Assembly (NCBI RefSeq): GCF_004153445.1
Contig: NZ_SDQC01000005.1
Location: 1-64,000, forward strand
Direction: 5' to 3'
DNA: 64,000 nt
Source of the DNA: Allopusillimonas soli
Lineage (GTDB): Bacteria > Pseudomonadota > Gammaproteobacteria > Burkholderiales > Burkholderiaceae_B
The notes below the pieces were generated by a model that searched no databases, was not told where the DNA came from, and was given only the letters and a program-made list of their open reading frames with translations. Shown here piece by piece: positions 31,423 to 64,000 of the stretch. A program made the translations under genes and the position numbers. The stretch's first letter is position 1, and each line of letters starts with the position of its first letter.

Positions 31423-32292
31423 ATGGCTGTTGATCATTATGAAAACTTTCCGGTCGCCTCGATGCTGCTGCCCCGGCGCCTGCGCCCCGCGGTGCATGCC
31501 ATCTATCGGTTTGCCCGCAGCGCCGATGATATCGCCGACGAGGGCGATGCGCCTGCGCACGAGCGCCTGCGCCGCTTGACAGACTATCGCCGCGCGCTGG
31601 CGCAAGTGGCCAGCGGCACCGACCGCTGGCCGCCGGGCGACCCGCTTGGGGCGGTTTTCCAACCCCTGAGCCTCGCCATACAGCACCATGATCTTCCGCT
31701 GCAGCCTTTCGAGGACCTGCTCTCCGCCTTCGAGCAGGATGTTTCCACCACCCGCTATGGCAGCCAGGCAGACTTGCTGGATTATTGCCGCCGGTCGGCC
31801 AACCCGGTCGGTCGCCTGATGCTGCATCTGTACCGTGCCGCCGACCAGGACAATCTGCTGCTGTCCGATGCCATCTGCACAGGTCTGCAATTGGTCAATT
31901 TCTGGCAGGATGCGGCCGTGGACTGGCGCAAAGGGCGCATCTATATTCCTCAGGAGTCGATGTCCCGGCACGGCGTGGACGAACTTTACATTGCGCGGCG
32001 CATCAGTCTGGCAGACGGCATGGCGCGGGCGGCGCCCGGCGACCCCATCGCGGATACCACGTGGGCCGCCCTCATGGCAGAGCAGGCTGCCTGGGCGCAA
32101 GGCCTGCTGCTGGCGGGCCTGCCTCTCGCCAGCCGTTTGCGCGGACGCATCGGACTGGAGCTGAAACTGGTGGTGCTGGGTGGCCTGCGTATCCTCGAAC
32201 GGCTGAACCATTTACACTATGACATATTCCTGCAGCGGCCCACACTCGCCCGACGCGACTGGGCGCTGCTGTGCTGGCGGGCGCTGCGCTAG
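31423..32292 (+). CDS. hpnC: squalene synthase HpnC
   Basis: A 289-residue trans-isoprenyl-diphosphate synthase-like protein that, in the HpnCDE route, converts presqualene diphosphate to hydroxysqualene. VDHYENFPVASMLLPRRLR is the HpnC-type N-terminus. The aspartate-rich motif is SADDIADEGD (about residue 40) and the second motif NFWQDAAVDWRKGRIYIP (about 160). ATG 31423 fits; an upstream start at 31384 lacks support. First of hpnC-hpnD-hpnE, divergent from alr with 86 bases between. Confidence 0.93.
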   Translation: MAVDHYENFPVASMLLPRRLRPAVHAIYRFARSADDIADEGDAPAHERLRRLTDYRRALAQVASGTDRWPPGDPLGAVFQPLSLAIQHHDLPLQPFEDLLSAFEQDVSTTRYGSQADLLDYCRRSANPVGRLMLHLYRAADQDNLLLSDAICTGLQLVNFWQDAAVDWRKGRIYIPQESMSRHGVDELYIARRISLADGMARAAPGDPIADTTWAALMAEQAAWAQGLLLAGLPLASRLRGRIGLELKLVVLGGLRILERLNHLHYDIFLQRPTLARRDWALLCWRALR

Positions 32293-32337
32293 AACCAAAC
32301 CACAGGCCGGCCACCCGCCTCCAATCACAAGTCCCGC

Positions 32338-33204
32338 ATGAATCCCGACGAATATTGCCAGAACAAGGCCGCCCAGAGCGGTTCCAGTTTTTATTACAGC
32401 TTCCTGTTCCTGCCGCCCGAAAGACGCAGGGCCATCACAGCGCTCTATGCCTTTTGCCGCGAGGTGGATGACGTCGTCGACGAGGTCACCGAACCCTCCG
32501 TGGCGCGCATGAAGCTGGCGTGGTGGCGCACGCAGGTCGAAGCCCTGCGCGGCGGCCAGGCCGAGCACCCCGTCATGCAGGCACTTGCACCGCATGTGCA
32601 GGCCTTCGGCCTGGACGAAGACAAGCTGCTGGCCGTCATCGACGGCATGGAAATGGATCTGGACCAGGCCCGCTATATGGACTGGGATGCGCTGCGCACC
32701 TACTGTTGGCATGCCGCCAGCGTGGTGGGCGAGCTGTCGGCCAGTATTTTCGGCTATACCCGGGAAGAAACCATGGTCTTTGCAGACAAGCTGGGCCTGG
32801 CATTCCAACTGACCAATATACTGCGCGATGTTGGCGACGACGCCCGTCGCGGCCGCATCTACCTGCCCGTCGAGGATATGGAAAAGTACAACGTGCCGGC
32901 ATCGGATATTCTCCAGCGCCAGCACTCCGACCGATTCGAGGCGCTGATGCGTTTCGAAGCGCAGCGCGCGCGCCAGCACTACCGCGAAGCCATGCAGGCC
33001 CTGCCCGATGTGGACCGACGGGCGCAGCGCCCTGGTCTCATGATGGCTGCCATCTACCACACGCTGCTGGATGAAATCGAAAGGGAGAACTGGCGGGTAC
33101 TGGATCAGCGCATCGCCCTGACCCCCATACGCAAGTTCTGGCTGGCCTGGAAAACCTGGGTGGGCGGCGGCGCGGGCGTCGTAAAGCGCCTGAGCCGCCC
33201 ATGA
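32338..33204 (+). CDS. hpnD: presqualene diphosphate synthase HpnD
   Basis: A 288-residue enzyme that condenses two farnesyl diphosphates into presqualene diphosphate. SSFYYSFLFLPPERRRAITALYAFCREVDDVVDEV is the diagnostic start with the first aspartate motif; written in parts here as SFLFLPPERR and EVDDVVDEV. The second motif is NILRDVGDDARRGRIYLP. Starts 45 bases after hpnC. It uses the FPP that IspA (also in this window) would make. Confidence 0.94.
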   Translation: MNPDEYCQNKAAQSGSSFYYSFLFLPPERRRAITALYAFCREVDDVVDEVTEPSVARMKLAWWRTQVEALRGGQAEHPVMQALAPHVQAFGLDEDKLLAVIDGMEMDLDQARYMDWDALRTYCWHAASVVGELSASIFGYTREETMVFADKLGLAFQLTNILRDVGDDARRGRIYLPVEDMEKYNVPASDILQRQHSDRFEALMRFEAQRARQHYREAMQALPDVDRRAQRPGLMMAAIYHTLLDEIERENWRVLDQRIALTPIRKFWLAWKTWVGGGAGVVKRLSRP

Positions 33205-49085: not shown

Positions 49086-50318
49086 TCAGATTACGCCCTT
49101 GCTGCGCAACTCTTCCAGCAGGTCCTCCGACAGGCCGAGGCTGCCATACACCATGTCATTATGTTCGCCGACATCAGGCCCTGTTCTAGGAATGGGTAGC
49201 TCCCGACCGGCCACACGAGGGACAATGCAAGGCGCTGGCAGGCTGCCATAGTCGTGATCAGGTAGCCGCACAATGGTGTGGCGCGCCTGAAAGTGTGGAT
49301 CGGACTCGATATCCGCTATGTTATATACCTTACTAAAGGGAATGCTGTGAGCGTCAAGCGCTTTCGCGATTGCATCATATGAACGCTCCTGAAACCATGG
49401 AGACAGGCGCGCCTCAAGCTCATTCACATGGCGCACGCGATCCGGGTTCGTTCGAAAACGCACATCCTCCGACCACTCCGGGTGCCCAAGCGCAATACAG
49501 AGCCGACGAAAAACGGGATTGGACGAGGCCACGAGAGAAAAATACACGCCATCCTCACTGCGATACATATTGGACGGCGCAGTATAGGATGCACAATTGC
49601 CTACCGGCTCCCGCACAAAACCCAGCTGCTCATGCTCGACGGGTAATGGGTCTAGTAGCCGAAACAGCGCTTCTGTAGCGGACAAATCAATCTCCACACC
49701 GCCTGCCTGTGGGTCGTCACGCAAGCGCACCATCTCGGCTGCGATCGAAAATGCGGCGAACAATCCCGCAACGGCATCACCGACCGGAAAGTTGCAATGC
49801 AGCGGTGGCCCGCCCGCAAAACCATTGAGATTGGTAAATCCGCTCATGGCTTCAAAAATTCGTGCAAAACCGGCTCGCGAACTATACGGGCCATTCTGCC
49901 CAAAACCGGTCAACCGCAGAATAACAAGGCGCGGGTTGTGCCGGAATAGTGTATCGGCATCCAGGCCCCAGCGAGCCATCGTCCCCGTCCTAAAGTTCTC
50001 CACCAGTACGTCGAATGACGGCAGCATCTTCAAGAACACATCCCGCCCAGCGGGCGTCCGCACATCCAGCGTGATACCGAGTTTGCCGCGATTTGCCACC
50101 TTCCACCACAAGGCCCGCCCATCCTTGATCGGCTGAAGCCCCCGTAAGGCGTCGCTACCGTCGGGCAACTCCAACTTAACGACCTCCGCGCCTAAGTCGC
50201 CGCATAACGTGGCGCCAAAAGGCGCTGCCAAGACTGTGGCCATGTCAAGAATGCGCACACCCGAAAGCGGGCCGGACTGTTCAGTTGCATGTGAAGAGGT
50301 AGTCAATGGCAGCTCCAT
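49086..50318 (-). CDS. class III (CaiB/BaiF) CoA-transferase
   Basis: A 410-residue formyl-CoA transferase-like enzyme that would move CoA between acids. GVRILDMATVLAAPFGATLCGDLGAEVVKLE is the usual start (parts: ILDMATVLAAPF, LGAEVVKLE). The catalytic Asp fits D181 in NFPVGDAVAGLFAAF. It probably activates the acid that the neighbouring dehydrogenases oxidise. Starts divergently from iclR with a perfect palindrome between. Its end lies 10 bases from that of the first dehydrogenase, so the two are convergent. Confidence 0.9.
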   Translation of the reverse strand: MELPLTTSSHATEQSGPLSGVRILDMATVLAAPFGATLCGDLGAEVVKLELPDGSDALRGLQPIKDGRALWWKVANRGKLGITLDVRTPAGRDVFLKMLPSFDVLVENFRTGTMARWGLDADTLFRHNPRLVILRLTGFGQNGPYSSRAGFARIFEAMSGFTNLNGFAGGPPLHCNFPVGDAVAGLFAAFSIAAEMVRLRDDPQAGGVEIDLSATEALFRLLDPLPVEHEQLGFVREPVGNCASYTAPSNMYRSEDGVYFSLVASSNPVFRRLCIALGHPEWSEDVRFRTNPDRVRHVNELEARLSPWFQERSYDAIAKALDAHSIPFSKVYNIADIESDPHFQARHTIVRLPDHDYGSLPAPCIVPRVAGRELPIPRTGPDVGEHNDMVYGSLGLSEDLLEELRSKGVI

Positions 50319-50376
50319 TATCGTCGCGTATTGAAAGTCTTGTTTTTGCCTGATCTATGATAGAACTGCAATCTAA

Positions 50377-50393
50377 ATTTCGCTAAGCGAAAT
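50377..50393. promoter_or_regulatory. candidate IclR-family operator
   Basis: ATTTCGCTAAGCGAAAT is a perfect palindrome (8-base arms, 1-base centre) in the 117-base gap between the divergent CoA-transferase and the iclR start. Size and TTCGC...GCGAA core suit IclR-type operators. It could control both genes. Confidence 0.6.
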
Positions 50394-50435
50394 GCTATTT
50401 CTAAATTATTGACCTACGTTTCACTCGAGGAGATG

Positions 50436-51275
50436 ATGAAAACCGTGCAAGACAAGAACTCTATTGCGTCCATGATTCATTTGCCAGGCCTCGTGAGTCC
50501 GCATGACCTTTCCACTGATCGTCAGTTCTCTATGAACCTCGCTCGTGGTCTCGAAGTGCTGCGCGCATTTACACCATTGGACGCCGTATTGGGCAACCGG
50601 GATATATCCGACCGAACAGGCCTGCCAAGACCCACCATATCGCGTCTGACCTACACCCTGACGCTGCTCGGATACCTGAGCTACGACGAGCGGCTGCAGA
50701 AATATCGCTTGGGATCGGGGGTGCTATCCCTGGGCTATCCGTTACTGGCCAGCATGCGCATTCGGCAGATTGCGCGGCCCTTCATGGAACATTTGTCCAA
50801 GGACACGGGCTGCACGGTGAACCTGGGGATGCGGGACAGAAGCAACATCGTCTATGTGGAAACTTGTCGCCTGGACGCGGGAAACGCATATCAGCCAGAC
50901 ATCGGCAGCACGCGGCCGCTGCTCTCCACCGCGATGGGGCGGGCGTTGCTGATGGCGTGCTCGACGACTGATTGCAATGCCATATTGAACCGTCTGCAAG
51001 TCATGGACCCAGGAAGTTTTGCAAAGGACAAACCCAGTTGGGACCGGGATAAAAAGGCCTTTTCACGTCGCCATTTCTGCCATTCCCAGGGAGACTGGCG
51101 CGAAGAAATACACGCTATCGCTGCACCAATCCGGCAGCCTCACAACGAACCGCAAGTTGCCCTGAACTGCACAATGTCCGCGATCCGGCTTAGCAAAAAT
51201 TCGCTGGAAGAGGAAGCCGCTCCTCGAATGCTGGAAGCAATACGGCAGATTGAAGGCGCATGTGGAATTCACTGA
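50436..51275 (+). CDS. IclR family transcriptional regulator
   Basis: A 279-residue regulator with an N-terminal winged helix-turn-helix (FSMNLARGLEVLRAFTPLDAV, then ISDRTGLPRPTISRLTYTL as the recognition helix) and a C-terminal effector-binding domain (GCTVNLGMRDRSNIVYVETC; STAMGRALLMA). Such proteins sense small organic acids and control nearby catabolic genes. Start is uncertain: ATG 50436 with GAGG 5 bases upstream is preferred; TTG 50409 and later ATGs are possible. It starts the plus-strand group iclR, acyl-CoA dehydrogenase, solute-binding protein, nitronate monooxygenase. Confidence 0.88.
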   Translation: MKTVQDKNSIASMIHLPGLVSPHDLSTDRQFSMNLARGLEVLRAFTPLDAVLGNRDISDRTGLPRPTISRLTYTLTLLGYLSYDERLQKYRLGSGVLSLGYPLLASMRIRQIARPFMEHLSKDTGCTVNLGMRDRSNIVYVETCRLDAGNAYQPDIGSTRPLLSTAMGRALLMACSTTDCNAILNRLQVMDPGSFAKDKPSWDRDKKAFSRRHFCHSQGDWREEIHAIAAPIRQPHNEPQVALNCTMSAIRLSKNSLEEEAAPRMLEAIRQIEGACGIH

Positions 51276-51300
51276 CAATCAACCATAGGACAGCCGTTTC

Positions 51301-52467
51301 ATGATCCGCGATCCGTATAAGCTGGAGCAACTGCTCGCTGAAGTCAGGCAGTTTATTAAAGAGGAGTGCATACCGTGTGAGCGCGAGGTGGATCAAGCCG
51401 ACGAGATCCCTTCACATATTGTCGCCCGCATGCGGTCTCTAGGACTGTTTGGCCACAGTATTCCTGAAGCATATGGCGGTGGAGGATTGACAAGCGAAGA
51501 ACTGTGTCTTGTGAATATGGAGGTTTCACAAGCAGCCACAGCTTTTCGTGCCCGCTTCGGCGGGAATACGGGCATCGCGTCCGAATCGCTAGTCGTTGAT
51601 GGCACGGAAGAACAGAAACAGCACTATCTCCCGCGCCTGGCCTCGGGAGAAATAACGGGATGTTTCGCCCTGACCGAACCCGGGGCGGGCTCGGACGCCA
51701 CCGCTCTGAAGACCACTGCTGTCCGTCGAGGTGGTGACTACGTGCTCAATGGCCTCAAGTGCTACATCACCAACGCGCCTATCGCCGACCTGTTCACCGT
51801 GTTTGCCCGCACAGACCCGGAAAGCCGGGGTGCGCATGGAATAAGCGCTTTCCTCATAGAAAAAGGCACATCAGGTCTGGCGGTGTCATTGCCATATAGA
51901 AAAATGGGCCAGCACGGCTCTCCCGTTGGCGAAGTCATACTGACCGATTGCAGCGTTCCTGCTTCTTCGATTGTGGGGGAAATGGAGAACCAGGGCTTTC
52001 GTACCGCCATGAAAGCACTGAACAAGCAGCGAATCAATCTGGCTGCCCTGTGCATCGGTCCGGCAATACGTCTGCTGGATGAAATGGTTTCCCGGGCAGC
52101 GAGCCGGCAGCAGTTTGGACAAAATATCGCCGAATTTCAAATGATCCAACAGATGATTGCACAGAGCAATATAGAAATTCATGCTGCAAGGGCTCTGCTG
52201 ATGGAAACCGCTCGCAAACGGGATGCAGGCGCGGATGTGACCATGGAAGCGTCCATGTGCAAGTTTTTTGCATCGGAGATGTGTGGCCGCGTCGCAGACC
52301 GCGCTGTGCAGGTTTTTGGTGGAGGGGGCTATATCGCGGATAACGCTGCCGAACTCTTCTATCGGGACGTTCGTCTGTTCCGCCTGTACGAAGGCACTAG
52401 CCAGATCCACCTCATTAATATCGCCAAACGTACCATGGCGACCGCCCATGAGCCATCCGGCTCGTGA
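51301..52467 (+). CDS. acyl-CoA dehydrogenase
   Basis: A 388-residue FAD acyl-CoA dehydrogenase, only distantly like the first one in this cluster. LFGHSIPEAYGGGGL, CFALTEPGAGSDATALKTTA and RLYEGTSQIHLINIAK are typical, with E364 as the likely catalytic base in YEGT. SRQQFGQNIAEFQMIQQMIA is also usual. It begins 25 bases after iclR and is followed by the solute-binding protein. Chain specificity unknown. Confidence 0.93.
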   Translation: MIRDPYKLEQLLAEVRQFIKEECIPCEREVDQADEIPSHIVARMRSLGLFGHSIPEAYGGGGLTSEELCLVNMEVSQAATAFRARFGGNTGIASESLVVDGTEEQKQHYLPRLASGEITGCFALTEPGAGSDATALKTTAVRRGGDYVLNGLKCYITNAPIADLFTVFARTDPESRGAHGISAFLIEKGTSGLAVSLPYRKMGQHGSPVGEVILTDCSVPASSIVGEMENQGFRTAMKALNKQRINLAALCIGPAIRLLDEMVSRAASRQQFGQNIAEFQMIQQMIAQSNIEIHAARALLMETARKRDAGADVTMEASMCKFFASEMCGRVADRAVQVFGGGGYIADNAAELFYRDVRLFRLYEGTSQIHLINIAKRTMATAHEPSGS

Positions 52468-52512
52468 ACCACGCTTGAAGAAGCAAATCATAAATAGAAC
52501 TGGAGACAATTC

Positions 52513-53496
52513 ATGAAAAACCGCAAACCACAACTTGCCGCATTTCTTGCGCTAGCGCTGCCAGCCATCTTCATGAGCGCGCCTTCGCAGGCAGCCAGTT
52601 ATCCCGAGAAGCCAGTCACCATCATCGTGCCCTTTAGTCCTGGTGGCGTGGTGGACACAATCACACGCATAATTGGAGATAAGCTTTCCGCACGATACGG
52701 CCAGCCCGTCGTCGTTGAAAACAAAGCGGGAGCAGGAGGCACCATCGGCACCGGATATGTGGCACATGCGCCGGCCGATGGCTACACTTTGTTGAGTGTC
52801 AGCCCAGGCCATGCAGTGGCTCCCAGTCTTTATAAGAACCTTGGATGGAATCCAATTCGAGATTTTAGGGCGGTTGAAGGATTCGGCATTGTTCCTAATG
52901 TATTCGTCGTGCCCCCCAGTGTGCCTGCCAAGAATATGGCGGAACTCATCGAAATGGCGAGAAAAAGTGATACGCCACTGACCTATGCCACGGCGGGCAT
53001 TGGAACCTCAAACCACCTGTCAGGCGCACTCCTTTCAGAAATGGCTCACATCAAGCTGGAGCAGGTGCCATACCGAGGTCAGCCCTTGGCCCTCAACGAC
53101 CTGCTCGCCGACCGAGTAACGATGATGCCACTTACCATCGCGCTGGCAAAACCCCGTATTGAATCAGGCAAACTGCGTCCGCTTGCAGTTACTACAGCTC
53201 AAAGAGCCACCGCGTTACCTGATATCCCCACCGTGGCGGAAGCCGCAAACCTGCCGGACTATGCAGTAGGTACGTGGTTCGGTTTTGTAGCGCGCAAACA
53301 AGTTCCAGATGACATTATCGATAAACTGTCCAAGGACATCGCGGAAACCCTTGCCATGCCAGAGGTCAAGGAAAAGTTGACCGGCATCGGCCTGCAAATT
53401 CAACCACAAAACCCGCAAGAATTTGACGCCTATATTGACGCCGAATATAAGAAATGGTCGCGCGTTCTTAAACAGGCAGGAATCAAACCACAATGA
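52513..53496 (+). CDS. tripartite tricarboxylate transporter substrate-binding protein (Bug family)
   Basis: A 327-residue periplasmic binding protein with a Sec signal peptide (FLALALPAIFMSAPSQA, cleavage about residue 27). YPEKPVTIIVPFSPGGVVDTITRIIG is the Bug signature; VVVENKAGAGGTIG is also classic. These bind small carboxylates and normally work with TctA/TctB membrane proteins, which are absent here; many betaproteobacteria have numerous such orphan Bug genes. Its stop overlaps the nitronate monooxygenase ATG as ATGA, suggesting a related role in taking up or sensing the cluster's substrate. Confidence 0.92.
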   Translation: MKNRKPQLAAFLALALPAIFMSAPSQAASYPEKPVTIIVPFSPGGVVDTITRIIGDKLSARYGQPVVVENKAGAGGTIGTGYVAHAPADGYTLLSVSPGHAVAPSLYKNLGWNPIRDFRAVEGFGIVPNVFVVPPSVPAKNMAELIEMARKSDTPLTYATAGIGTSNHLSGALLSEMAHIKLEQVPYRGQPLALNDLLADRVTMMPLTIALAKPRIESGKLRPLAVTTAQRATALPDIPTVAEAANLPDYAVGTWFGFVARKQVPDDIIDKLSKDIAETLAMPEVKEKLTGIGLQIQPQNPQEFDAYIDAEYKKWSRVLKQAGIKPQ

Positions 53497-54614
53497 ACGC
53501 CGCTATCGAAACCGCCTTCACGACGCCGCTATGTCGCAGGCTGAGAGTGCGCTTTCCTATATTCGGATTCTCGCACTCCGTCGATGTGTGCGTTGCCATT
53601 GCCCGAGCAGGCGGCTTTCCCGTTGTTGGGCTGGCTCGGGAAATGCCTGAAGAGATACCGGATATCATCAAGAGCCTGGAACGTAAGATGCAAGGCATGC
53701 CTTATGGCATAGACCTGATGCTTCCTGGCGGTGTCCCCGAACATGGCAACCATGCGTCACTCCAGGAAGCACTTCCGATTGAACAACGCAATTTCGTTTC
53801 CGCGCTGCGCCAACGCTTCGAGATCAAGCCTCCAAGTCAGCCAAGCTTTTTCACTACGCAGGTGCGCACGCAGGCATTGTTCGACCAGCAGATCGAGCAA
53901 GTGCTCGCATCGAACGCAACCGCTATCGCTACTGCGATCGGGCTGCGTGCGGACTTGATCGTGCGCGCCAAAGCGGCAGGGAAAATGACTTTTTCCTTGA
54001 TCGGCTCGCCGCGACACGCTGCAAAGGCACTGGACATGGGCGTGGATGTGCTCGTGGCCCAGGGATACGATGCGGGAGGCCATACGGGTCCCATCGGTAC
54101 TATGTCGTTAATTCCACAAATCGTCGAGCTTGCGGGCGACACACCCGTACTCGCTGCCGGAGGCATTGCCACTGGCGGCCAGATACTTGGCTCTATGGCC
54201 ATGGGGGCCCAAGGGGCGTGGCTGGGAACGCTGTGGATGGCGGCAAAGGAAAACCACACGCCCTCCGCCCTACTCGAACGCCTGGTAAACGCCGCCAGTG
54301 ACGATACCGTAGTAACGCGCGCCCATAGCGGCAAACCTTGCAGAGTCGTGCGGAGTGCCTGGATCGACGCTTGGGAGCAAACAGATGCTCCCGCCCCCTT
54401 GCCGATGCCCTTTCAGCAAGTGCTAACGGGCGATGTGTTCACATCCATCCATGAAACCAACGACAATCGGCTTATCTACGAGGCGGCCGGGCAGAGCCTG
54501 TTCGCAATACGCGGCCAAACCACCATAGCGGCTCAATTTGAGCAGTTGGTCTCCGAAATGCGCGAAGCGTGGCTGTCTTTGCAACCATGGGCAGGTGGAG
54601 AAACCTCGGCCTAG
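53493..54614 (+). CDS. nitronate monooxygenase-like FMN enzyme
   Basis: A 373-residue TIM-barrel flavoprotein of the NMO/2-nitropropane dioxygenase family. [22 protein letters not shown] begins the barrel; [22 protein letters not shown] holds the catalytic-type His (H197) and a D193 where class I enzymes usually have Glu; [15 protein letters not shown] binds phosphate. NMO, a related enoyl reductase or another FMN enzyme are all possible. Coupled to the upstream Bug gene. Its TAG stop and the folE2 TAG stop share the palindrome CTAG (54611-54614). Confidence 0.8.
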
Positions 54615-55432
54615 ACCTCCACCACGGCATACGCCGAGTGGTTGTGGATGGATTCGAAGTTTTCCGCCACGACGCGCAAGTGGCTGATGCCGGGCGTACC
54701 CCGAAGGTGTGCAGCCACGTCGCGTACGAGATCCTCGACAAACTTCGGGTTCTCGTAGGCGCGCTCGGTGACGAATTTTTCATCGACGCGCTTGAGCAGT
54801 CCCCACAGTTCGCAGGAAGCCTGCTGCTCTACGCCGCGGATGAGCGTGTCGACCTGTACGTTTTCAGGATGGTCGAATACGACCGTGACCGACACATGCG
54901 AGCGCTGATTGTGGGCGCCGTAGTCGGAAATGGCCTTGGAGCAGGGGCACAAGCTGGTGACGGGCACCGTGACGTGGAGTTCGAATTCGGTGGCGGCAGG
55001 CATGCCGTCCCGCCCTTTGCGCGCTCTTGCCGTCCAGGCGATCTCGTAGTCCATGAGGCTGGGGACGCCGGACATGGGTGCGATCTTCGTCAGGAAATAG
55101 GGAAAAGTAACGGAAATATCGCCTTTGTCGGCATTGAGCAGAGGGAGCATGGCCTGTGCCATTTCGCAAAAACGCTGTGGTGTCATGGCCGTCTGGCGAT
55201 ATTCCTCAAGCAGGGCAACGAAACGCGACATATGCGTGCCCTTCTCGGTCGCCGGCAGTGCCACGGTAAGCTCCCATGTACCCACCGTGGGCTGCGCCTG
55301 CCCATCTGAATTCTGCACCAGCATGGGATGGCGGACTCCCCTGACCCCCACGCGCTGGATAGCGATATGGCGTGTATCAACGCTGCTCTGCACGTCCGGC
55401 ATGGCGACAGCGGAGTCAAGTGGAATATTCAT
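54611..55432 (-). CDS. folE2: GTP cyclohydrolase FolE2 (type IB)
   Basis: First step of folate (and queuosine) precursor synthesis: GTP to 7,8-dihydroneopterin triphosphate. The 273-residue type IB enzyme has the hallmark [21 protein letters not shown], with C162 and C164 near the metal site. Unlike FolE it does not need zinc specifically. A perfect FNR-like site lies 40 bases ahead of its start. It stands between the catabolic cluster and dxs. Confidence 0.95.
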
Positions 55433-55471
55433 TGTTCAAACCTGTATGCGAGGCGGAAATTGCCCGTGATA

Positions 55472-55485
55472 TTGATCTATATCAA
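55472..55485. promoter_or_regulatory. FNR/ANR-type site upstream of folE2
   Basis: TTGAT-CTAT-ATCAA, an exact match to the FNR/ANR/Crp-Fnr consensus TTGAT-N4-ATCAA. It is 40 bases before the folE2 ATG and overlaps a -10-like TATAGA on the minus strand with a TTGCGG -35 at 17 bases, so repression is the simpler reading. Confidence 0.6.
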
Positions 55486-55538
55486 GTATGCGGCACCGCC
55501 GCAATGCATGACTTTATAACCACAATGGTAACAGGCTC

Positions 55539-57398
55539 TTAGGCTAAATCGGGATACCGGCTGCGTATCGACCGCTCCACGCCGGCCGCGTCCAGTCCCA
55601 ATTCGGCCAGGAGCGCAGCCTGGTCGCCATGGTCTATAAACTGGTCAGGCAGCCCAAGCTGAAGCACCGGCACCTGCAAACCTTTCCTTGCCAGAAACTC
55701 GAGCACCGCACTGCCGGCACCGCCCATGATGGCTGCCTCCTCGAGGGTGACAATCGCCTTGTGGCTCGTGGCAAGACGTTCAACCAGCGCTTCGTCCAGC
55801 GGCTTCACGAACCGCATGTCGGCAACGGTGGCATCGAGTCGCCCAGCTGCCTCCATGGCGGCCTGGCACAGTGTGCCGAACGCCAGAATGGCAATCTGCT
55901 TGCCTTCCCGGCGCACGATGCCCTGCCCCAAGGGCACCGCGTCAAGCCCGGCCCTCACTTCGACGCCCGCACCCGCGCCCCGTGGATAACGCACCGACGC
56001 AGGACCGGGATGCCGGAAGCAGGTATTGAGCAACAGGCGCGTCTCGTTTTCGTCCGAGGGCGTCGCCACAACCATATTGGGCACGCAGCGCAGATAGGCG
56101 ATGTCATAGTTGCCGGCATGCGTGGCGCCATCCGCGCCGACAATGCCCGCTCTATCGAGGGCAAAGGTGACGTCAAGGTTCTGCAGGGCCACATCATGAA
56201 TAAACTGGTCGTACCCTCGCTGCAGGAAGGTGGAATAGATGGCGACCACGGGCTTCTGCCCTTCGCAGGCCAGTCCGGCGGCAAACGTCACAGCATGCTG
56301 TTCGGCAATGCCCACATCGAAATAACGCATCGGGAACTGCTTTTCGAACTCCACCAGGCCGCTGCCCTCGCGCATGGCGGGCGTAATGCCCACCAGGCGA
56401 TCATCCGCTGCAGCCATATCGCATAGCCACCGGCCGAATACCTGGGTGAAGGTCTGGCGCGCGGGCGTTCCCGGCTTTTGTATGCCCACTGATGGATCGA
56501 ACTTGCCCGGTCCGTGATAAAGCACCGGATCGGCCTCGGCCAGCTTGTAGCCCTGCCCCTTGCGGGTCACGACATGCAGAAACTGCAAGCCGCCCAATGC
56601 CTTGAGGTTCTCGAGCGTGGGTATCAGCGCATCAAGGTCATGGCCATCGATGGGGCCCACATAATTGAAGCCAAGTTCCTCGAACAAGGTCGAAGGGGAC
56701 ACCATGCCCTTGGCATGTCCCTCGAACCTGCGCGCCAGTTCGAGCACAGGCGGGACGTGCTGCAGAACCGCGCGCCCCACATTTTTGGCCGCCGCATAGA
56801 AGCCGCCGGACATCAGTCGAGCAAGATAGCGGTTGAGGGCGCCGACCGGCGGCGAGATCGACATGTCGTTGTCATTGAGGATGACCAGGACATTGACCCC
56901 GGGCGTGACACCCGCATTGTTGAGCGCCTCGAATGCCATGCCGGCGGTCATTGCGCCGTCGCCAATCACCGCAATATGCTGGCGGTCTTCGCCTGCGTTA
57001 CGCGCGGCCACGGCCATACCCAGCACGGCGGAAATAGACGTCGATGAATGCGCGGTACCAAACGCGTCGTACTCGGACTCGCTGCGCCGGGGAAATCCGG
57101 ATATGCCGCCACGCTGGCGCAGGCCCGCCATGCCTTCGCGGCGGCCAGTCAGTATCTTGTGCGGATACGATTGATGACCGACATCCCAGACAATGCGGTC
57201 GTAGGGCGTGTTGAATACGTGATGCAGTGCCACCGTCAGCTCGACCGTGCCCAGGTTGGACGACAGATGCCCCCCAGTCCGGGAAACCGACTGCAGAACG
57301 AAGTCCCGCAGTTGGTCCGCCAGCTCGCTGAGTTCGGAGCGGTCCAGGGCCCGCAAGTCGGCAGGGCTATTGATCGTGTCGAGAGAGACAGTGGTCAT
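55539..57398 (-). CDS. dxs: 1-deoxy-D-xylulose-5-phosphate synthase
   Basis: TPP-dependent first step of the MEP isoprenoid pathway, also feeding thiamine and pyridoxal phosphate. The 619-residue length is typical. Motifs: [37 protein letters not shown] (TPP-binding GDG), [15 protein letters not shown], and the transketolase-like C-terminal half with [15 protein letters not shown]. It follows ispA and xseB on the minus strand, a classic xseB-ispA-dxs order. Confidence 0.97.
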
Positions 57399-57458
57399 AC
57401 AGATTCAACAAGAGTTTGCTAAGGCCATTTTAGCCCCAGGCCGGCATGCGCCCCGATC

Positions 57459-58373
57459 TCAATGGTCACGGCCCACAATATAGTCGGCAATACACCCAAG
57501 ATGCGCCGCGGCGGGCCCCAACGGCAACAGGGCGGCGCGCGCCTGGGCATGCAGGTCCTTGAGCAGGCCGCGCGCACCGTCCAACCCCAGGGCACTGACA
57601 TATGTGGGCTTGTTGCCGGCCGCGTCCTTGCCGGCGGTCTTTCCCAAGGTGGCCGTATCCGCAGTCACATCCAGGATGTCGTCAACGACCTGAAAGGCGA
57701 GCCCGACGGCGCTGGCGTAGGTTTCCAGGCCCTGGCGCGCCGACGAGCCCGCCCCCGCCACGATGCCGCCCAACAGCACGCTCGCTTCCAGCAACGCGCC
57801 GGTTTTCATGCTGTGCATTTGCCGCAACGCCTCGGGGGTGAGCGTGCAGCCCACGCTCGCACAATCTATGGCCTGGCCACCGACCATGCCCAGGCTGCCG
57901 GTAGAGCGCGCCAGCAACTGGGTGCCCTGTACAACCAGGGCGGGCGCAATGGGCATCATGCCCAGCAATTCGAATGCCAGCGGCTGCAGGGCGTCGCCAG
58001 CCAGCATCGCCGTGGCTTCGTCAAATTGAACATGTACCGTGGGGCGGCCGCGCCGTAACGCATCATCGTCCATGCAGGGCAAGTCGTCATGGACCAGGGA
58101 ATAGGCGTGGATAAGCTCGACGGCAGCGGCAGCATGGTCCAGCGCAATCTCCTGGGCGGATGCGGCCGTGCCCGGTTGCAGGGAGGCCTCGCCGGCCGCA
58201 TATACAAGTGCAGCCCGCACGCGCTTTCCGCCGCCCAGGACGGCATAGCGCATGGACTCGTGCAGCCGCGCCGGCGTTGTCGTAGCGGGCGGCAGCACTT
58301 GATCGAGAACGGTTTCTATGTGCTGGACGCGGCCAGCCAGCCAGGCGGGAAAATCAATGGATCTGCGCGGCAT
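57459..58373 (-). CDS. ispA: farnesyl diphosphate synthase
   Basis: Makes farnesyl diphosphate from IPP and DMAPP. The 304-residue trans-prenyltransferase has the first aspartate motif DDLPCMDDDALRRGRPT and the second in VVDDILDVTAD. GGKRVRAALVYAAGE binds diphosphate. Three bases after xseB. Its product would supply HpnD and ubiquinone/undecaprenyl synthesis. Confidence 0.96.
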   Translation of the reverse strand: MPRRSIDFPAWLAGRVQHIETVLDQVLPPATTTPARLHESMRYAVLGGGKRVRAALVYAAGEASLQPGTAASAQEIALDHAAAAVELIHAYSLVHDDLPCMDDDALRRGRPTVHVQFDEATAMLAGDALQPLAFELLGMMPIAPALVVQGTQLLARSTGSLGMVGGQAIDCASVGCTLTPEALRQMHSMKTGALLEASVLLGGIVAGAGSSARQGLETYASAVGLAFQVVDDILDVTADTATLGKTAGKDAAGNKPTYVSALGLDGARGLLKDLHAQARAALLPLGPAAAHLGCIADYIVGRDH

Positions 58374-58376
58374 GCC

Positions 58377-58652
58377 CTACTCTTCTTCGCCGCCGTCGCC
58401 ATCGCCATAAGGCTTGAGCAGATTGTCGCGCAGCACCTTGACCTGCTGCTCCGCCTGATCCAGGCGCCGCTGGCAGATGCGCGCCAATGCAACACCCTGC
58501 TCGTAGGCAGCCAGGGATTGCTCAAGAGGGAGGGATCCGTTTTCCATTTGCGCAACCAGTGTTTCCAGCTGAGCCAGCGCTGTTTCGAAATCCTGTGGCA
58601 GCGCCGTGTCGTCGGCCTGTCCCGCCGCGGTATCCGGTGGCATGTCAGTCAT
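58377..58652 (-). CDS. xseB: exodeoxyribonuclease VII small subunit
   Basis: A 91-residue subunit of exonuclease VII. After a short acidic leader, [50 protein letters not shown] is the XseB core (parts: [28 protein letters not shown]). ATG 58652 gives MTDMPPD; an upstream start lacks support. First gene of xseB-ispA-dxs. Confidence 0.95.
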
Positions 58653-58801
58653 ATCAGTATCCGGGCGCGCCCTGCGCCGCCCCGTTTGTCGTGTCTCATG
58701 AACGGGATTGTACGGGATGCGCATGGTGCGCTGAGTAACAAAATGCCTGAATCAAGCCATCGACACGCAAATACGATACAATGTTGGGTTTCCTAATTTT
58801 C

Positions 58802-58821
58802 ATCGGGCAATCCGATTTTTT
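58802..58821 (+). promoter_or_regulatory. small hairpin with T-run in the Rieske gene leader
   Basis: ATCGG-GCAAT-CCGAT followed by a run of six T (58816-58821), about 58 bases before the Rieske gene. A 5-base stem is weak for an intrinsic terminator; a leader attenuator is possible. A -10-like TACAAT lies upstream at about 58778, but no good -35. Confidence 0.3.
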
Positions 58822-58878
58822 CTTCGCGCCGGGTCCTTTTCTGGTATTGCTGCCTGGTTCATCACTGCGGGGGGAATC

Positions 58879-60030
58879 ATGACCGACATCGGAAGGCAGG
58901 CACACGTGATGCCTGCGCAATCCCAACTTCCAGTCAACAGCTATTTCGACGAGCGCATTTTCGCCCTCGAGCAAGCGCGCATCTTCGGGCAGTCCGCAAG
59001 ATATGTGGGCCACGAAAAATTCGTACCCGAGCCCGGCGACTGGCGCACATTGGCCCAGGAAGAGGCAGGCCGGGTGCTGGTGCGCAATCCGAACGGCGTG
59101 GAGCTTATTTCCAACGTGTGTCGTCACAGGCAGGCTATCATGCTGGGAGGCCAGGCGGGCGATGTCAGCAGCACCGCACTGTCCAAAGGCAATCTGCGCC
59201 AGATGGGCGGCAACATCGTCTGCCCGGTGCATCGCTGGACCTACCGCAATGACGGCAAGTTGCTGGGTGCGCCCCAGTTTCCCAGCACGCCCTGCATGGA
59301 TCTGCAACGTTTTCCGCTCAAAAACTGCCACGGGCTGCTGTTCGAAGGCCCGCGCGATCCTAGCCGCGACATGGCGCCGTTATTCCAGCGCCCCGAGTTC
59401 GATTTTTCCGATTACGTGCTGGACCACATCGAGGTTCACCATTGCCATTACAACTGGAAGACCTTTATCGAGGTCTACCTCGAAGACTACCATGTGGGTC
59501 CGTTTCACCCAGGCCTCGGGAAATTCGTCACCTGTGACGACCTGACCTGGGAATTTGCCGACTGGTACAGCTGCCAGCGGGTGGGTGTGCATGAAGCGCT
59601 GGGACAACCCGGCACGGACGTCTATCGCGCCTGGCACGATCGGCTGCTCGATTACCGCAGCGGGGACCAGCCCGATTTCGGTGCGGTATGGGTCACGTAT
59701 TTTCCCACCCACATGATCGAGCTGTATCCGCATGTGCTGGTGCTGTCCACCCTGCACCCGGTCAGCCCCCAGGAAACGTTGAATATCGTCGAATTTTATT
59801 ATCCCGAAGACATAGCGGCATTCGAACCCGATTTTGTGAAAGCCCAGCGGGCCGCCTATATGGAGACCGCCATCGAGGACGACGAGATCGCCGAGCGCAT
59901 GGATGCGGGCCGCAAGGCGCTCATGCGGCGAGGCGTCAACGAGGCCGGCCCGTATCAGTCTCCGATGGAAGACGGCATGCAGCATTTCCACGAATGGTAT
60001 CGTCGCACCATGGGCGCCGCCGCGCTCTAG
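58879..60030 (+). CDS. Rieske non-heme iron oxygenase alpha-subunit-like protein
   Basis: A 383-residue oxygenase. The Rieske [2Fe-2S] ligands are C81-x-H83 and C115-x2-H118, with an unusually long 31-residue spacer between the pairs (usual 15-17). The mononuclear-iron site is in EVYLEDYHVGPFHPG, with D203, H205 and H210. ATG 58879 follows GGGGGGAA. No beta subunit, ferredoxin or reductase is adjacent. It is divergent from xseB-ispA-dxs. Substrate unknown; choline monooxygenase-like, ring-hydroxylating and demethylase relatives look similar. Confidence 0.87.
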   Translation: MTDIGRQAHVMPAQSQLPVNSYFDERIFALEQARIFGQSARYVGHEKFVPEPGDWRTLAQEEAGRVLVRNPNGVELISNVCRHRQAIMLGGQAGDVSSTALSKGNLRQMGGNIVCPVHRWTYRNDGKLLGAPQFPSTPCMDLQRFPLKNCHGLLFEGPRDPSRDMAPLFQRPEFDFSDYVLDHIEVHHCHYNWKTFIEVYLEDYHVGPFHPGLGKFVTCDDLTWEFADWYSCQRVGVHEALGQPGTDVYRAWHDRLLDYRSGDQPDFGAVWVTYFPTHMIELYPHVLVLSTLHPVSPQETLNIVEFYYPEDIAAFEPDFVKAQRAAYMETAIEDDEIAERMDAGRKALMRRGVNEAGPYQSPMEDGMQHFHEWYRRTMGAAAL

Positions 60031-60052
60031 TCGGCAGGCAAGCCAGCGTCTG

Positions 60053-61096
60053 TCAGGCGCCGGCCCCCTGGCCGGCTGGAAGGCTCGCGGCGCGGCCCGG
60101 CATGTCGCCGGCGCCTTCCGCGAGATTTTCATCGGGTGCCACCCTTTCATTGGCGACACGCGCCTCGTCGGGCGCAAGAGCCTGCAGCGGTGCGTCATCT
60201 GGCGATGGGGGCGTGTTTTCAGGCGCCATCGCCACATCGCCCCGCAGCACCCTGTCTTCGCTATACGTGCGCCAAATGGACAGCAGGCCGGAGGAAATAA
60301 TGAGGGCCATGCCTGCCCAGGCGATGATATCGGGCACCGTGCCCCAGATCGCCATGCCAAGCAAGGCCGCGAAGATGATGGTTGTGTACTGCAAGGCCGC
60401 AGTCAGCAGCGCCGAGCCCAGTCCGAAGGCGCGCGTCATGGCAAGCTGGCCCACCAGGCCCAGCACACCTATGCCGACCAGGGCGGCCCAGGCGGAAGGA
60501 CTGATATCGTTTACGCCCTGTATCGCCAGTTGCGGCACGCTGGACAGACACACAAAGCATGAGAAGATAAACACAGTGCGCCATTCGGGTTCGCCAACAC
60601 GCCCCAATTGACGTATCTGCATCATGGCGACTGCCGACATGGCGCCTGCGCCAAGCCCCAGTGCGGCGGCCAGCAAATGTTCATGCTCGAGGCTGGGCCG
60701 CAGCACGGCCAGCACGCCCAGGAAACCCAGCGCCACGGCGGCGATGCGGATGGGATCGCGCTGTGTGCCGCCCCATCCGAGCATCCAGCCGGCAATGAAC
60801 AATGGCGCCGTATAGTTCAGGCTGATGGCGGTGGACAAGGGCAGGTGCGAAATGGCATAGAAGCCCAACCACATGGAGCATATGCCCGAAATGTTGCGCC
60901 AGATGTGCAGGCGCCAGCTTGTGGGTGCCAGACTGCGATGCGTGTAGCGCGTCCAGATGAACAGCAGCAGCACGGAGGGTATGCCGCGAAAAAGCACGAC
61001 GTGCGCAAGCGATGCGCCATGATCGGACGCGATCTTGACGCAAGCCCCCATGCCAGCAAACATGACACTCGCCAGTAACATCCACAGAGACTGCAT
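60053..61096 (-). CDS. EamA/DMT family exporter with a C-terminal tail
   Basis: A 347-residue inner-membrane protein with ten helices in two EamA repeats (first from SLWMLLASVMFAGMGACVKI; second ending VPDIIAWAGMALIISSGLLS). The last 70 residues form an unusual Pro/Ala/Glu/Asp-rich tail (APENTPPSPDDAPLQALAPD...) that I do not recognise. ATG 61096 is preferred over the TTG nine bases upstream. Convergent with the Rieske gene, divergent from htpX. Exported substrate unknown; RhtA/YdcZ-type families are relatives. Confidence 0.85.
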   Translation of the reverse strand: MQSLWMLLASVMFAGMGACVKIASDHGASLAHVVLFRGIPSVLLLFIWTRYTHRSLAPTSWRLHIWRNISGICSMWLGFYAISHLPLSTAISLNYTAPLFIAGWMLGWGGTQRDPIRIAAVALGFLGVLAVLRPSLEHEHLLAAALGLGAGAMSAVAMMQIRQLGRVGEPEWRTVFIFSCFVCLSSVPQLAIQGVNDISPSAWAALVGIGVLGLVGQLAMTRAFGLGSALLTAALQYTTIIFAALLGMAIWGTVPDIIAWAGMALIISSGLLSIWRTYSEDRVLRGDVAMAPENTPPSPDDAPLQALAPDEARVANERVAPDENLAEGAGDMPGRAASLPAGQGAGA

Positions 61097-61111
61097 CTGA
61101 CCCAACCGAGA

Positions 61112-61139
61112 CTGAAGAACGGAACGCGAAACCCCATAC
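61112..61139 (+). promoter_or_regulatory. candidate sigma-32 promoter of htpX
   Basis: CTGAAG (61112-61117), 14 bases, CCCCATAC (61132-61139): a fair match to the heat-shock pair CTTGAAA / CCCCATNT. It lies about 100 bases before the htpX ATG. A vegetative-type TATACT follows it at once. HtpX is heat-shock controlled in E. coli. Confidence 0.4.
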
Positions 61140-61242
61140 TATACTCTCTTGCTCGCTCGGAGTATGCGTCCTCCTTTAAAATCCGGAACCTGGCCGCATT
61201 TGCAGGCTCCAAGCACAACGCTCGCAATCACGGAAAACCACA

Positions 61243-62124
61243 ATGAAACGGATCTTCCTCTTCCTGCTGACCAACATCGCCGTCATGATCGTCCTCAGCG
61301 CGTCCATGAACGTGCTGGGTGTTGGCCGCTATCTCACCGCAAACGGCCTGAACCTGTCCCAGCTGCTTATCTTTTCGGCCATACTGGGGTTTGCCGGCGC
61401 CCTCATTTCACTTTTCATCAGCAAATGGATGGCCAAGCAAAGCACCGGCGCGCGCGTCATCGACCCGCAGCATCCCGCCAATGCCCAGGAAGCCTGGCTG
61501 CTTGATACCGTGCATCAATTGGCCGACCGCGCAGGCATCGGCCGCCCCGAGGTCGCCATCTACGAAGGTGCACCCAACGCCTTCGCGACTGGCGCCTTCC
61601 GTAACAATGCACTGGTGGCAGTGTCCACCGGACTGCTGGACAGCATGACCGAGGCCGAGATTACAGCCGTGCTCGGGCACGAGGTGGCGCATGTTTCGAA
61701 CGGCGACATGGTCACGCTCACTCTCATCCAGGGCGTGGTGAACACCTTCGTCATCTTTCTGTCGCGCATTGTCGGCTATTTTGTCGATCGTGTGGTGTTC
61801 AAGAACGAACGGGGCGTCGGCATGGGTTATTACCTCACCGTCATCGCCTGCGAACTCGTCTTCGGCATTCTTGCATCCCTGATCGTCGCCTGGTTCTCGC
61901 GGCAGCGCGAATACCGTGCAGATGCAGGTTCCGCCCGGCTGCTCGGCTCCCGCGAGCCCATGATACATGCGCTTGCGCGGCTGGGCGGCATGGAACCCGG
62001 CGACCTTCCCAAAGCCTTCCAGTCCTCAGGCATCTCCGGCCGGCGCTCGGTCAGCGCGGCCTTTGCCTCGCATCCGCCGCTTGAGGCGCGCATCCACGCG
62101 CTGCAGGCCGCCCAAAGCTTCTGA
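61243..62124 (+). CDS. htpX: heat-shock membrane protease HtpX
   Basis: A 293-residue M48 zinc metalloprotease in the inner membrane that degrades misfolded membrane proteins together with FtsH. Two N-terminal helices (about 4-24 and 40-62), then HEVAH (H146, E147, H150) and a C-terminal Glu ligand in [14 protein letters not shown]. Two further helices lie at about 160-180 and 195-215. Full length. Confidence 0.97.
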
Positions 62125-62128
62125 CAGG

Positions 62129-62190
62129 CCAGACGCGCCTGCGCGCATCCGTCCACGACCAGCCCGATCGCGACGCTCGGACGCGTCTGG
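62129..62190. repeat. wide inverted repeat downstream of htpX
   Basis: Perfect 9-base arms CCAGACGCG (62129-62137) and CGCGTCTGG (62182-62190) with a 44-base loop that can fold further; TTTAT follows on the plus strand. It might help end htpX transcription, but the T-run is short. Confidence 0.35.
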
Positions 62191-62287
62191 TTTATCATGA
62201 TCAAGCATAAGCGCAGGCTGCTGTCCTGAAAAAAACAGGGAACAACCCGCAATATGTGGCCATGAGGCGCGCCGTCACGGATCCCGA

Positions 62288-63961
62288 ATGAAAGAATTCT
62301 TCGCCCTGCTCGATTTCGGTGGCTATATCGCACTGCTTCTCTGGGGCGTGCATATGGTCCAGAGCGGCGTGCAGCGCGCTTTCGGCGCCGCGCTGCGTAT
62401 CTGGATGGGCCGCGCCCTCGATACGCGCGGCAAGGCATTCTTCACGGGGCTAGGCATTACCGCCGCCATTCAAAGCAGCACGGCCACGGGCCTGATGATC
62501 AGCAGCTTCGCGGCCGGCGGCTTGCTGGCCCTGGTGCCGGGCCTTGCAGCAATGCTGGGCGCCAATGTCGGCACCACGCTCATCGTCCAGCTCCTGTCTT
62601 TCAATTTCACCGCGCTGGCGCCAGGCCTGATACTGATCGGGGTGTGGCTGTTCCGCCGCAACCAACCCAGCCGGCGCCGCGATCTGGGGCGCGTGTTCAT
62701 CGGCCTGGGCCTTCTGCTGCTGGCCCTGCACGAACTCATGCGGCTGTTCCAGCCCATCCAGGATGCGCAGCTACTTCGCATCGTGCTTGATGCGCTTTCA
62801 GACCAGCCCGTGGCCGCGCTGATTCTATCCGCCGTTCTGGCCTGGGCCTCGCACTCCAGCGTGGCGGTGGTCGTGCTGATCATGTCGCTGGCCAGCCACG
62901 GCATGATAGGCATGCCGCTGGCCTGCGCGCTGGTTCTGGGCGCCAACCTGGGCACTGCCATCAATCCGGTGCTGGAGACCAGTGGCGGCGACGATCCGGC
63001 GGCCAGGCGCCTGCCCCTGGGAAACCTGGGCACACGGCTGGCGGGATGCATGGTCGCGCTGCTGTTCCTGCACTGGGTAGGCCCGCTCATGGAACATCTC
63101 TCCGGCGGCCCTGCGCGCGCGGTTGCCAACTTCCACACGTTTTTCAATGTGATCGTGGCGCTGATTTTCATGCCGTTGCTCGACCCCTATGCGCGTCTGC
63201 TGCGGCGCATGCTGCCCAAGCGATCCGACCCCAACGATCCGGCCCGTCCCCAGTACCTGGATGAATCGGCTGGCGAGGTGCCCAGCATTGCCCTGGGCAA
63301 TGCCGCGCGCGAAGCACTACGCATCGCGGACATGGTACAGAGCCTGCTGTCCACCGCGCGCGCCGCATTTCAACGCGACAACCGGCATAGGCTAACCCAT
63401 GCGCGTTATATCGAAAACGCAGCGAGCCAACTGGACAGCCTCATTACAGCCTATCTGGCTTCGCTGGACGTCGATAACATGAACAACGACGACCACCGTC
63501 GGCTTGACGAGGTGGTCGCGTTTTCTTCCAATATGGCCCATGCCGCCAACCTGATTGCCAATGGGCTGATCGGCCACACAACCACCATGCGCAAGAAGGC
63601 CTGGGTGCTCAACGACTGGCAAAAAGAGCAGTTGCTGGCGGCGCTGGAGCGCCTGATGCGCAATGAACGCCAGAGTGCCGCGCTGTTCGTGGCTGAAGAC
63701 ATCAAGAGCGCACGCTATCTCGCGTTCGAGAAAGATCACTTCCGCGAACTCGAGACCGCCGCCGCCGAACAAAACCTGCAGGCAATCAAATCGGGCAAGC
63801 TGGAGGACATTGAACAGGGCTCATTCTTCCTGGACATCCTGCGCGATGCGAAGGCCATCAACTCCTGCCTGGTCGGCGCCAGCGCCTACCCCATTCTGGC
63901 CAAGCACGACGAGCTACTGCCCAACCGCCTGCGCGACAACGAGGCGCCGGCCGATACCTAG
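62288..63961 (+). CDS. Na/Pi-cotransporter family protein with PhoU-like C-terminus
   Basis: A 557-residue NptA/YjbB-type protein. An N-terminal membrane part (about 1-310) has the duplicated Na-Pi motif, QSSTATGLMI at about 60 and ASHSSVAVVVLIMSLAS at about 190. A helical PhoU-like region (about 345-540) follows. YjbB of E. coli exports phosphate when it is in excess. It is the second phosphate-linked protein in the window besides phoU. I saw no Pho box in the 163 bases ahead of it. The frame stops 40 bases before the window end. Confidence 0.9.
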   Translation: MKEFFALLDFGGYIALLLWGVHMVQSGVQRAFGAALRIWMGRALDTRGKAFFTGLGITAAIQSSTATGLMISSFAAGGLLALVPGLAAMLGANVGTTLIVQLLSFNFTALAPGLILIGVWLFRRNQPSRRRDLGRVFIGLGLLLLALHELMRLFQPIQDAQLLRIVLDALSDQPVAALILSAVLAWASHSSVAVVVLIMSLASHGMIGMPLACALVLGANLGTAINPVLETSGGDDPAARRLPLGNLGTRLAGCMVALLFLHWVGPLMEHLSGGPARAVANFHTFFNVIVALIFMPLLDPYARLLRRMLPKRSDPNDPARPQYLDESAGEVPSIALGNAAREALRIADMVQSLLSTARAAFQRDNRHRLTHARYIENAASQLDSLITAYLASLDVDNMNNDDHRRLDEVVAFSSNMAHAANLIANGLIGHTTTMRKKAWVLNDWQKEQLLAALERLMRNERQSAALFVAEDIKSARYLAFEKDHFRELETAAAEQNLQAIKSGKLEDIEQGSFFLDILRDAKAINSCLVGASAYPILAKHDELLPNRLRDNEAPADT

Positions 63962-64000
63962 GTCAGGTACCTGGCGAACCAGGCCAGGCATCGCTCCCAG
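63962..64000. other. right edge, no gene
   Basis: 39 bases after the Na/Pi gene with a small inverted repeat (CCTGGC / GCCAGG) that may be its terminator stem; cut off by the window. Confidence 0.3.

Follow-up and report, generated by a model that had tools for sequence, protein, structure and literature searches.

Li et al. 2016 (ACS Chem Biol 11:2782) studied putrescine hydroxylases from Bordetella bronchiseptica and Ralstonia solanacearum, which are reportedly Rieske proteins. According to a passage of PMC10385936 that cites Li et al. 2016, enzymes similar to those two may be the source of the 2-hydroxyputrescine found in Burkholderia and Cupriavidus, and the same passage gives 2-hydroxyputrescine as a part of alcaligin, which, to go by the title of a 1996 reference, is built from putrescine. 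Titles in the reference lists of PMC7857480 and PMC10385936 treat the polyamine as a chemotaxonomic marker, and statements in PMC9028926 and PMC5015223 record it in Massilia and in Lampropedia, respectively; no polyamine terms occur in PMC4028982. Ralstonia pickettii is described in a section of PMC7857480 as a producer of putrescine and 2-hydroxyputrescine with a single NIS synthetase, which is used for rhizoferrin, and on that description its hydroxylase is unlikely to be part of an alcaligin operon.

The gene considered here lies in a window of 64,000 nucleotides, by which we mean the whole stretch of DNA analysed, from Allopusillimonas soli (contig NZ_SDQC01000005.1). We read it as a housekeeping putrescine 2-hydroxylase of Burkholderiales, with a probability of roughly 0.85, and its features are collected in Table 1. 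Public annotation, present for 2 of the 12 plasmid matches, has 'aromatic ring-hydroxylating dioxygenase'. A Pfam scan of the 383-aa protein returned Rieske (PF00355, E 2e-9) and Ring_hydroxyl_A (PF00848, E 1e-39), both above the gathering score, and the relatives listed in the family and order searches are 53-86% identical to it over nearly their full length, which excludes a chance open reading frame. No second family member was found in the organism's own genome, the next-best matches covering about 30% of the protein at 35% identity.

Table 1. Features of the oxygenase locus (feature; position in the window; strand; basis or remark)
Rieske non-heme iron oxygenase, predicted putrescine 2-hydroxylase, 383 aa	58879..60030	+	ATG start, complete ORF
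Rieske [2Fe-2S] ligand segment C81-R-H83 ... C115-P-V-H118	59119..59232	+	read from sequence
31-residue loop between H83 and C115	59128..59220	+	loop-length count across aligned rows
Mononuclear iron-site motif NWKTFIEVYLEDYHVGPFHPGLG, residues 192-214	59452..59520	+	alignment, homology
D334, IEDDEI motif, likely third iron ligand	59878..59880	+	invariant in 55-relative alignment
xseB	58377..58724	-	conserved divergent neighbour
ispA (farnesyl diphosphate synthase)	57459..58373	-	conserved neighbour
dxs	55539..57398	-	conserved neighbour
154-bp intergenic stretch common to the divergent xseB and oxygenase genes	58725..58878	.	

In an alignment with 55 relatives (the structure alignment took in 55 of the 138 rows) the Rieske ligands C81-x-H83 and C115-xx-H118 are invariant and the iron-site stretch that begins at N192, NWKTFIEVYLEDYHVxPFHPGLG, is mostly so; this motif is present in 136 of the 138 rows, that of the window protein counted among them. 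It aligns to NWK...MECYHAGPAHPG of the carnitine monooxygenase CntA, by homology to which E202 would be the bridging acid and H205 and H210 the iron ligands, while D334, which aligns with the D of EDREI in 3vca, probably supplies the third ligand. The protein has the Rieske and ring-hydroxylase catalytic domains with intact ligands that would be expected of a putrescine 2-hydroxylase, and the earlier note's statement that the Rieske and iron-site residues are intact is borne out by the Pfam domains and by the invariance of the ligands.

The oxygenase gene is divergent from xseB-ispA-dxs, with its start 154 bp from xseB. The genes at 54.6-64.0 kb, recognized from their translations rather than by family searches, are folE2, dxs, ispA, xseB, a DMT (EamA) transporter, htpX and a Na/Pi cotransporter, and among the translations of this interval no reductase, ferredoxin, beta subunit or ring-cleavage gene was recognized, in agreement with the gene's earlier description as an orphan. 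No Rfam family reached its gathering score in 50000-64000. The adjacent interval of the window, 49086-54614, has the look of a catabolic cluster, its translations suggesting a CoA-transferase, an IclR-type regulator, an acyl-CoA dehydrogenase, a Bug-type binding protein and a nitronate-monooxygenase-like protein.

Given the possibility, raised in the earlier note, that the neighbour link was accidental, the dxs pairing was checked across Burkholderiales. Among the 98 of 300 genomes of the order that were listed with coordinates for both dxs and the oxygenase, a divergent pair lies within 3 kb in 83; the remaining 15 comprise 9 in which the genes are divergent on one contig 4.7-18.7 kb apart and 6 in which they are on different contigs. 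The pair is therefore an old feature of the order, and the link with dxs-ispA-xseB, far from accidental, is widely conserved. The best 80 of 589 relatives were kept as loci, and 69 of these have ispA and/or xseB upstream and divergent, with a gap of 1.4-3.7 kb between xseB and the oxygenase gene in 21 of the 69. The other 11 of these 80 are nine loci of an alc clade discussed below, L087, and L096, whose contig ends inside the oxygenase gene. The xseB-linked divergent arrangement is also found in Ralstonia and Acidovorax loci and in further genomes outside the window's own family. A literature search for Rieske, dxs, ispA and xseB named together found no paper. The dxs neighbourhood is an old and stable gene order that tells nothing of the substrate, and the link itself may be no more than frozen gene order.

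Some loci depart from the usual arrangement. In Alcaligenes faecalis (L087, 3654-7149) the oxygenase is gone from the dxs locus and sits beside minC (by Pfam) and a minD-like gene (by translation). In Achromobacter (L037:2565-5654) and Bordetella (L042:2759-5844) xseB and the oxygenase are separated by additional genes, which from their translations appear to encode an IclR-type regulator, a Bug-type binding protein and an acyltransferase.

The nine alc-clade loci form one clade inside the Alcaligenaceae part of the family (support 94) in a quick tree of 122 of the 138 rows, from which 16 near-identical rows were left out and outside of which two plasmid copies stand. Directly upstream of the oxygenase gene, eight of the nine have, in order, genes matching the AlcA-, AlcB- and AlcC-type proteins of one of them (L068), and five of those eight also have an MFS transporter; in the ninth (L062) the contig begins 141 bp before the oxygenase gene. 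By Pfam the upstream genes of L068 encode a lysine/ornithine-type N-monooxygenase (PF13434), a GNAT acyltransferase (PF13523) and an IucA/IucC synthetase (PF04183). We take this gene order to be that of the alcaligin operon, alcA-E, and the copy of the oxygenase within it to be AlcE. Since alcaligin is built from putrescine and contains 2-hydroxyputrescine, a Rieske enzyme in the operon is well placed for the C-hydroxylation. The annotation of a Caballeronia plasmid shows this alc-type order together with a siderophore ferric reductase, and a Cupriavidus plasmid that lacks annotation has the order by similarity; the oxygenase copies on these plasmids are 60-65% identical to the window protein. 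Tree and gene contexts group the window protein in one family with the oxygenase found in alcaligin-type operons, and the window gene, being dxs-linked rather than placed behind an NIS synthetase in an alc operon, is not AlcE proper.

The number of copies follows the siderophore genes. Among 15 genomes, two oxygenase copies occur in exactly the 8 that have an IucA/IucC-type synthetase and a single copy in the 7 without one, and in all 8 two-copy genomes one of the copies lies within 1 kb of the synthetase. Seven of these 8 had been picked beforehand for an alc-type locus, so the test is only partly independent; what it adds is that each of those seven has a second copy, that Ralstonia sp. A12 joins them as the eighth genome, and that the 7 others have one copy each. 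Three Ralstonia genomes with the alc copy retain the xseB-linked copy too, and no xseB was found within 1.5 kb of the second copies of two two-copy genomes (G792, G793). The synthetase query that matched 8 of the 15 genomes gave no match in the genome of A. soli, where the search had no positive control.

The alc copies also share the loop of the window protein. The earlier note had put the Rieske loop at about twice the usual length, and this is correct: it has 31 residues, and in many relatives from other families the count is 16. When the rows were grouped by family from the tree and the gene contexts, a loop of 31 residues was counted in 89 of the 102 proteins of Alcaligenaceae type and in every one of the nine from the alc clade, those of Ralstonia, Polaromonas and Variovorax among them, against 16-25 residues in all 27 proteins from other families. 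Five of the 102 Alcaligenaceae-type rows fall outside the strict loop pattern, with loops of 27-29 residues, and a chance C..H inside the loop of 15 Alcaligenaceae-type rows can give a spurious length of 16 residues. The long loop is a lineage insertion, a trait of Alcaligenaceae and of the alc copies. Together with the position in the tree, it suggests that the alc copy arose from the Alcaligenaceae housekeeping gene and then moved horizontally. The loop as a functional signature or a sign of new chemistry was rejected, its length following lineage. In an AlphaFold2 model, loop residues 91-100 have a mean pLDDT of 60.

The family is present in 249 of 300 Burkholderiales genomes (118 of 135 genera), and in 223 of the 268 genomes of the window's own family, and is near-core in the order. 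In a class-wide sample 3 of 229 genomes match at E 1e-45, these being the window's own and two others of the order, and the 20 that are listed out of the 226 genomes without a match all come from other orders. Within the order and class samples the family is confined to the group with the marker polyamine 2-hydroxyputrescine, and its concentration in Burkholderiales fits that marker; gene and polyamine go together at the level of the group. Outside the window's family there is one match per matching genome among the matches listed. The gene occurs in Taylorella (L105) and in genomes of 1.2-1.3 Mb (G418, G456, G483, G504, G512).

Putrescine supply was viewed alongside. The genome of A. soli has a gene of the ornithine/lysine/arginine-decarboxylase family, which is a possible source of putrescine. 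Among hand-picked genomes a PF01276 decarboxylase is present in 19 of 21 with the oxygenase and 23 of 30 without it, and so does not discriminate, and PF02784, probably largely lysA, is present in 49 of 51. The small genomes G456 (1.2 Mb), G418 and G483 (1.3 Mb) have kept both the oxygenase and an OKR-type decarboxylase, and two of 0.8 Mb (G133, G134) have the decarboxylase only.

In ten regions of gene-less genomes, chosen by an ispA or dxs match, the ispA-dxs pair is intact throughout, and in nine of the ten the stretch from xseB to the usual next genes has no remnant of the oxygenase. One further gene-less genome (G123) gave no match to ispA. In G370 a fragment matching oxygenase residues 321-373 (L175:3431-3589) remains at the expected place beside xseB; given that its genus-mate G444 has the gene, the loss in G370 was recent. 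Two metagenome-assembled genomes, recorded as Candidatus Methylopumilus (L086) and Bordetella parapertussis (L078), sit in the tree among Alcaligenaceae and other betaproteobacterial MAGs, and their labels look wrong.

The AlphaFold2 model has a mean pLDDT of 87 and a pTM of 0.85, with low confidence at iron-site residues 201-210 (mean pLDDT 59). Its best structural match is CntA (6y9c; Z 31.6, 331 residues, rmsd 2.7), and stachydrine demethylase (4qup; Z 30.2, 338 residues, rmsd 3.2) is tied with terephthalate dioxygenase (7q06; Z 29.7, 336 residues, rmsd 3.9); most other aromatic dioxygenases score lower. In the Foldseek ranking CntA comes second to the stachydrine demethylase group. The modelled fold fits a small cationic amine substrate without proving it, and the score of terephthalate dioxygenase would count against an amine. 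No diamine-binding residues were identified in the window protein.

Because of the dxs and ispA neighbours, an isoprenoid or hopanoid substrate, at which the earlier note had hinted, was considered first, and ubiquinone hydroxylation and tRNA isopentenyl hydroxylation were considered because of the spread of the family in the order. On an isoprenoid- or hopanoid-related reading the dxs-linked clade would act on such a compound and the alc-operon clade alone on putrescine. The deep conservation of the dxs-ispA-xseB neighbourhood speaks for this, as does the presence on the same contig of two adjacent squalene/phytoene-synthase-fold genes (PF00494; window 31432-33129) consistent with hpnC-hpnD, and the conserved dxs linkage counts against the putrescine reading, which leaves it without explanation. 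However, the alc clade branches within the Alcaligenaceae part of the family in the quick tree and has an identical iron-site motif, the nearest folds are those of enzymes for small cationic amines, and the ispA-dxs pair stays intact in the ten gene-less genomes, whose regions were chosen by ispA or dxs match. R. pickettii, moreover, makes 2-hydroxyputrescine according to the section of PMC7857480 cited above, so that it probably has a source other than an alc operon. On the siderophore-operon paralogues and the fold matches, with the concentration in Burkholderiales besides, the isoprenoid or hopanoid substrate was dropped, and we regard it as very unlikely.

It is likewise very unlikely that another small amine, whether a quaternary ammonium compound, cadaverine, agmatine or a longer polyamine, is the substrate and putrescine a minor one. 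The closest solved folds are indeed carnitine and stachydrine oxygenases, and glycine betaine monooxygenase GbcA is the best weak NCBIfam match at 74.7 bits, but this score is far under the equivalog cut-off of 670 and the relationship to the alc-operon copies favours a diamine. As for an ordinary catabolic aromatic ring-hydroxylating dioxygenase, the Pfam domains and the two annotated plasmid matches bear a name of this kind; against this, the gene is near-core in the order, with one match per listed genome outside the window's family and some carriers of 1.2-1.3 Mb, neither a beta subunit nor a ring-cleavage gene was recognized nearby, and the NCBIfam aromatic equivalogs (benzoate, anthranilate and phenylpropionate dioxygenases) reach 29-35 bits against cut-offs of about 670-830. 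We consider a catabolic aromatic role extremely improbable.

As a putrescine 2-hydroxylase, the alpha-only Rieske oxygenase would insert one hydroxyl group at C-2 of putrescine to give 2-hydroxyputrescine; it would use O2, and a general reductase of the cell, presumably encoded elsewhere, would supply the electrons. The AlcE copy, which seems to have arisen by duplication of the housekeeping gene of Alcaligenaceae and travels with the alc operon, would feed 2-hydroxyputrescine into alcaligin. If the assignment is right, the marker polyamine of Betaproteobacteria gains a gene, usually present once, whose presence can be read from a genome, lineages expected to be without 2-hydroxyputrescine can be predicted, and the role of this compound can be tested by one deletion. 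More tentatively, and at somewhat less than even odds, we propose that nearly all of the order makes 2-hydroxyputrescine as a housekeeping metabolite by way of this near-core gene next to dxs, that genomes of 1.2-1.3 Mb are no exception and siderophores no precondition, and that the compound has a conserved function in the cell, which may be coordinated with the dxs operon by means of the intergenic region common to both. The interest of the locus lies in this near-universality and in the role of 2-hydroxyputrescine: why the gene is kept, and why beside dxs.

The enzyme family itself is known, and the window gene represents its dxs-linked member, which is spread across the order. With CntA and stachydrine demethylase the protein shares the overall fold, which by itself says nothing of the substrate, and with CntA also a Glu at the bridging position; it differs from them in its longer Rieske loop and its gene context, and is 22-25% identical over the aligned part. 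It is much closer to AlcE, with 72-77% identity to the proteins of the nine alc-clade loci and the same 31-residue loop, and differs in being dxs-linked in a genome that gave no alc synthetase match. To the putrescine 2-hydroxylases of B. bronchiseptica and R. solanacearum it is presumably alike as a betaproteobacterial Rieske oxygenase with a paralogue in alcaligin-type operons, the difference being that those enzymes were assayed and the window protein is predicted from its sequence.
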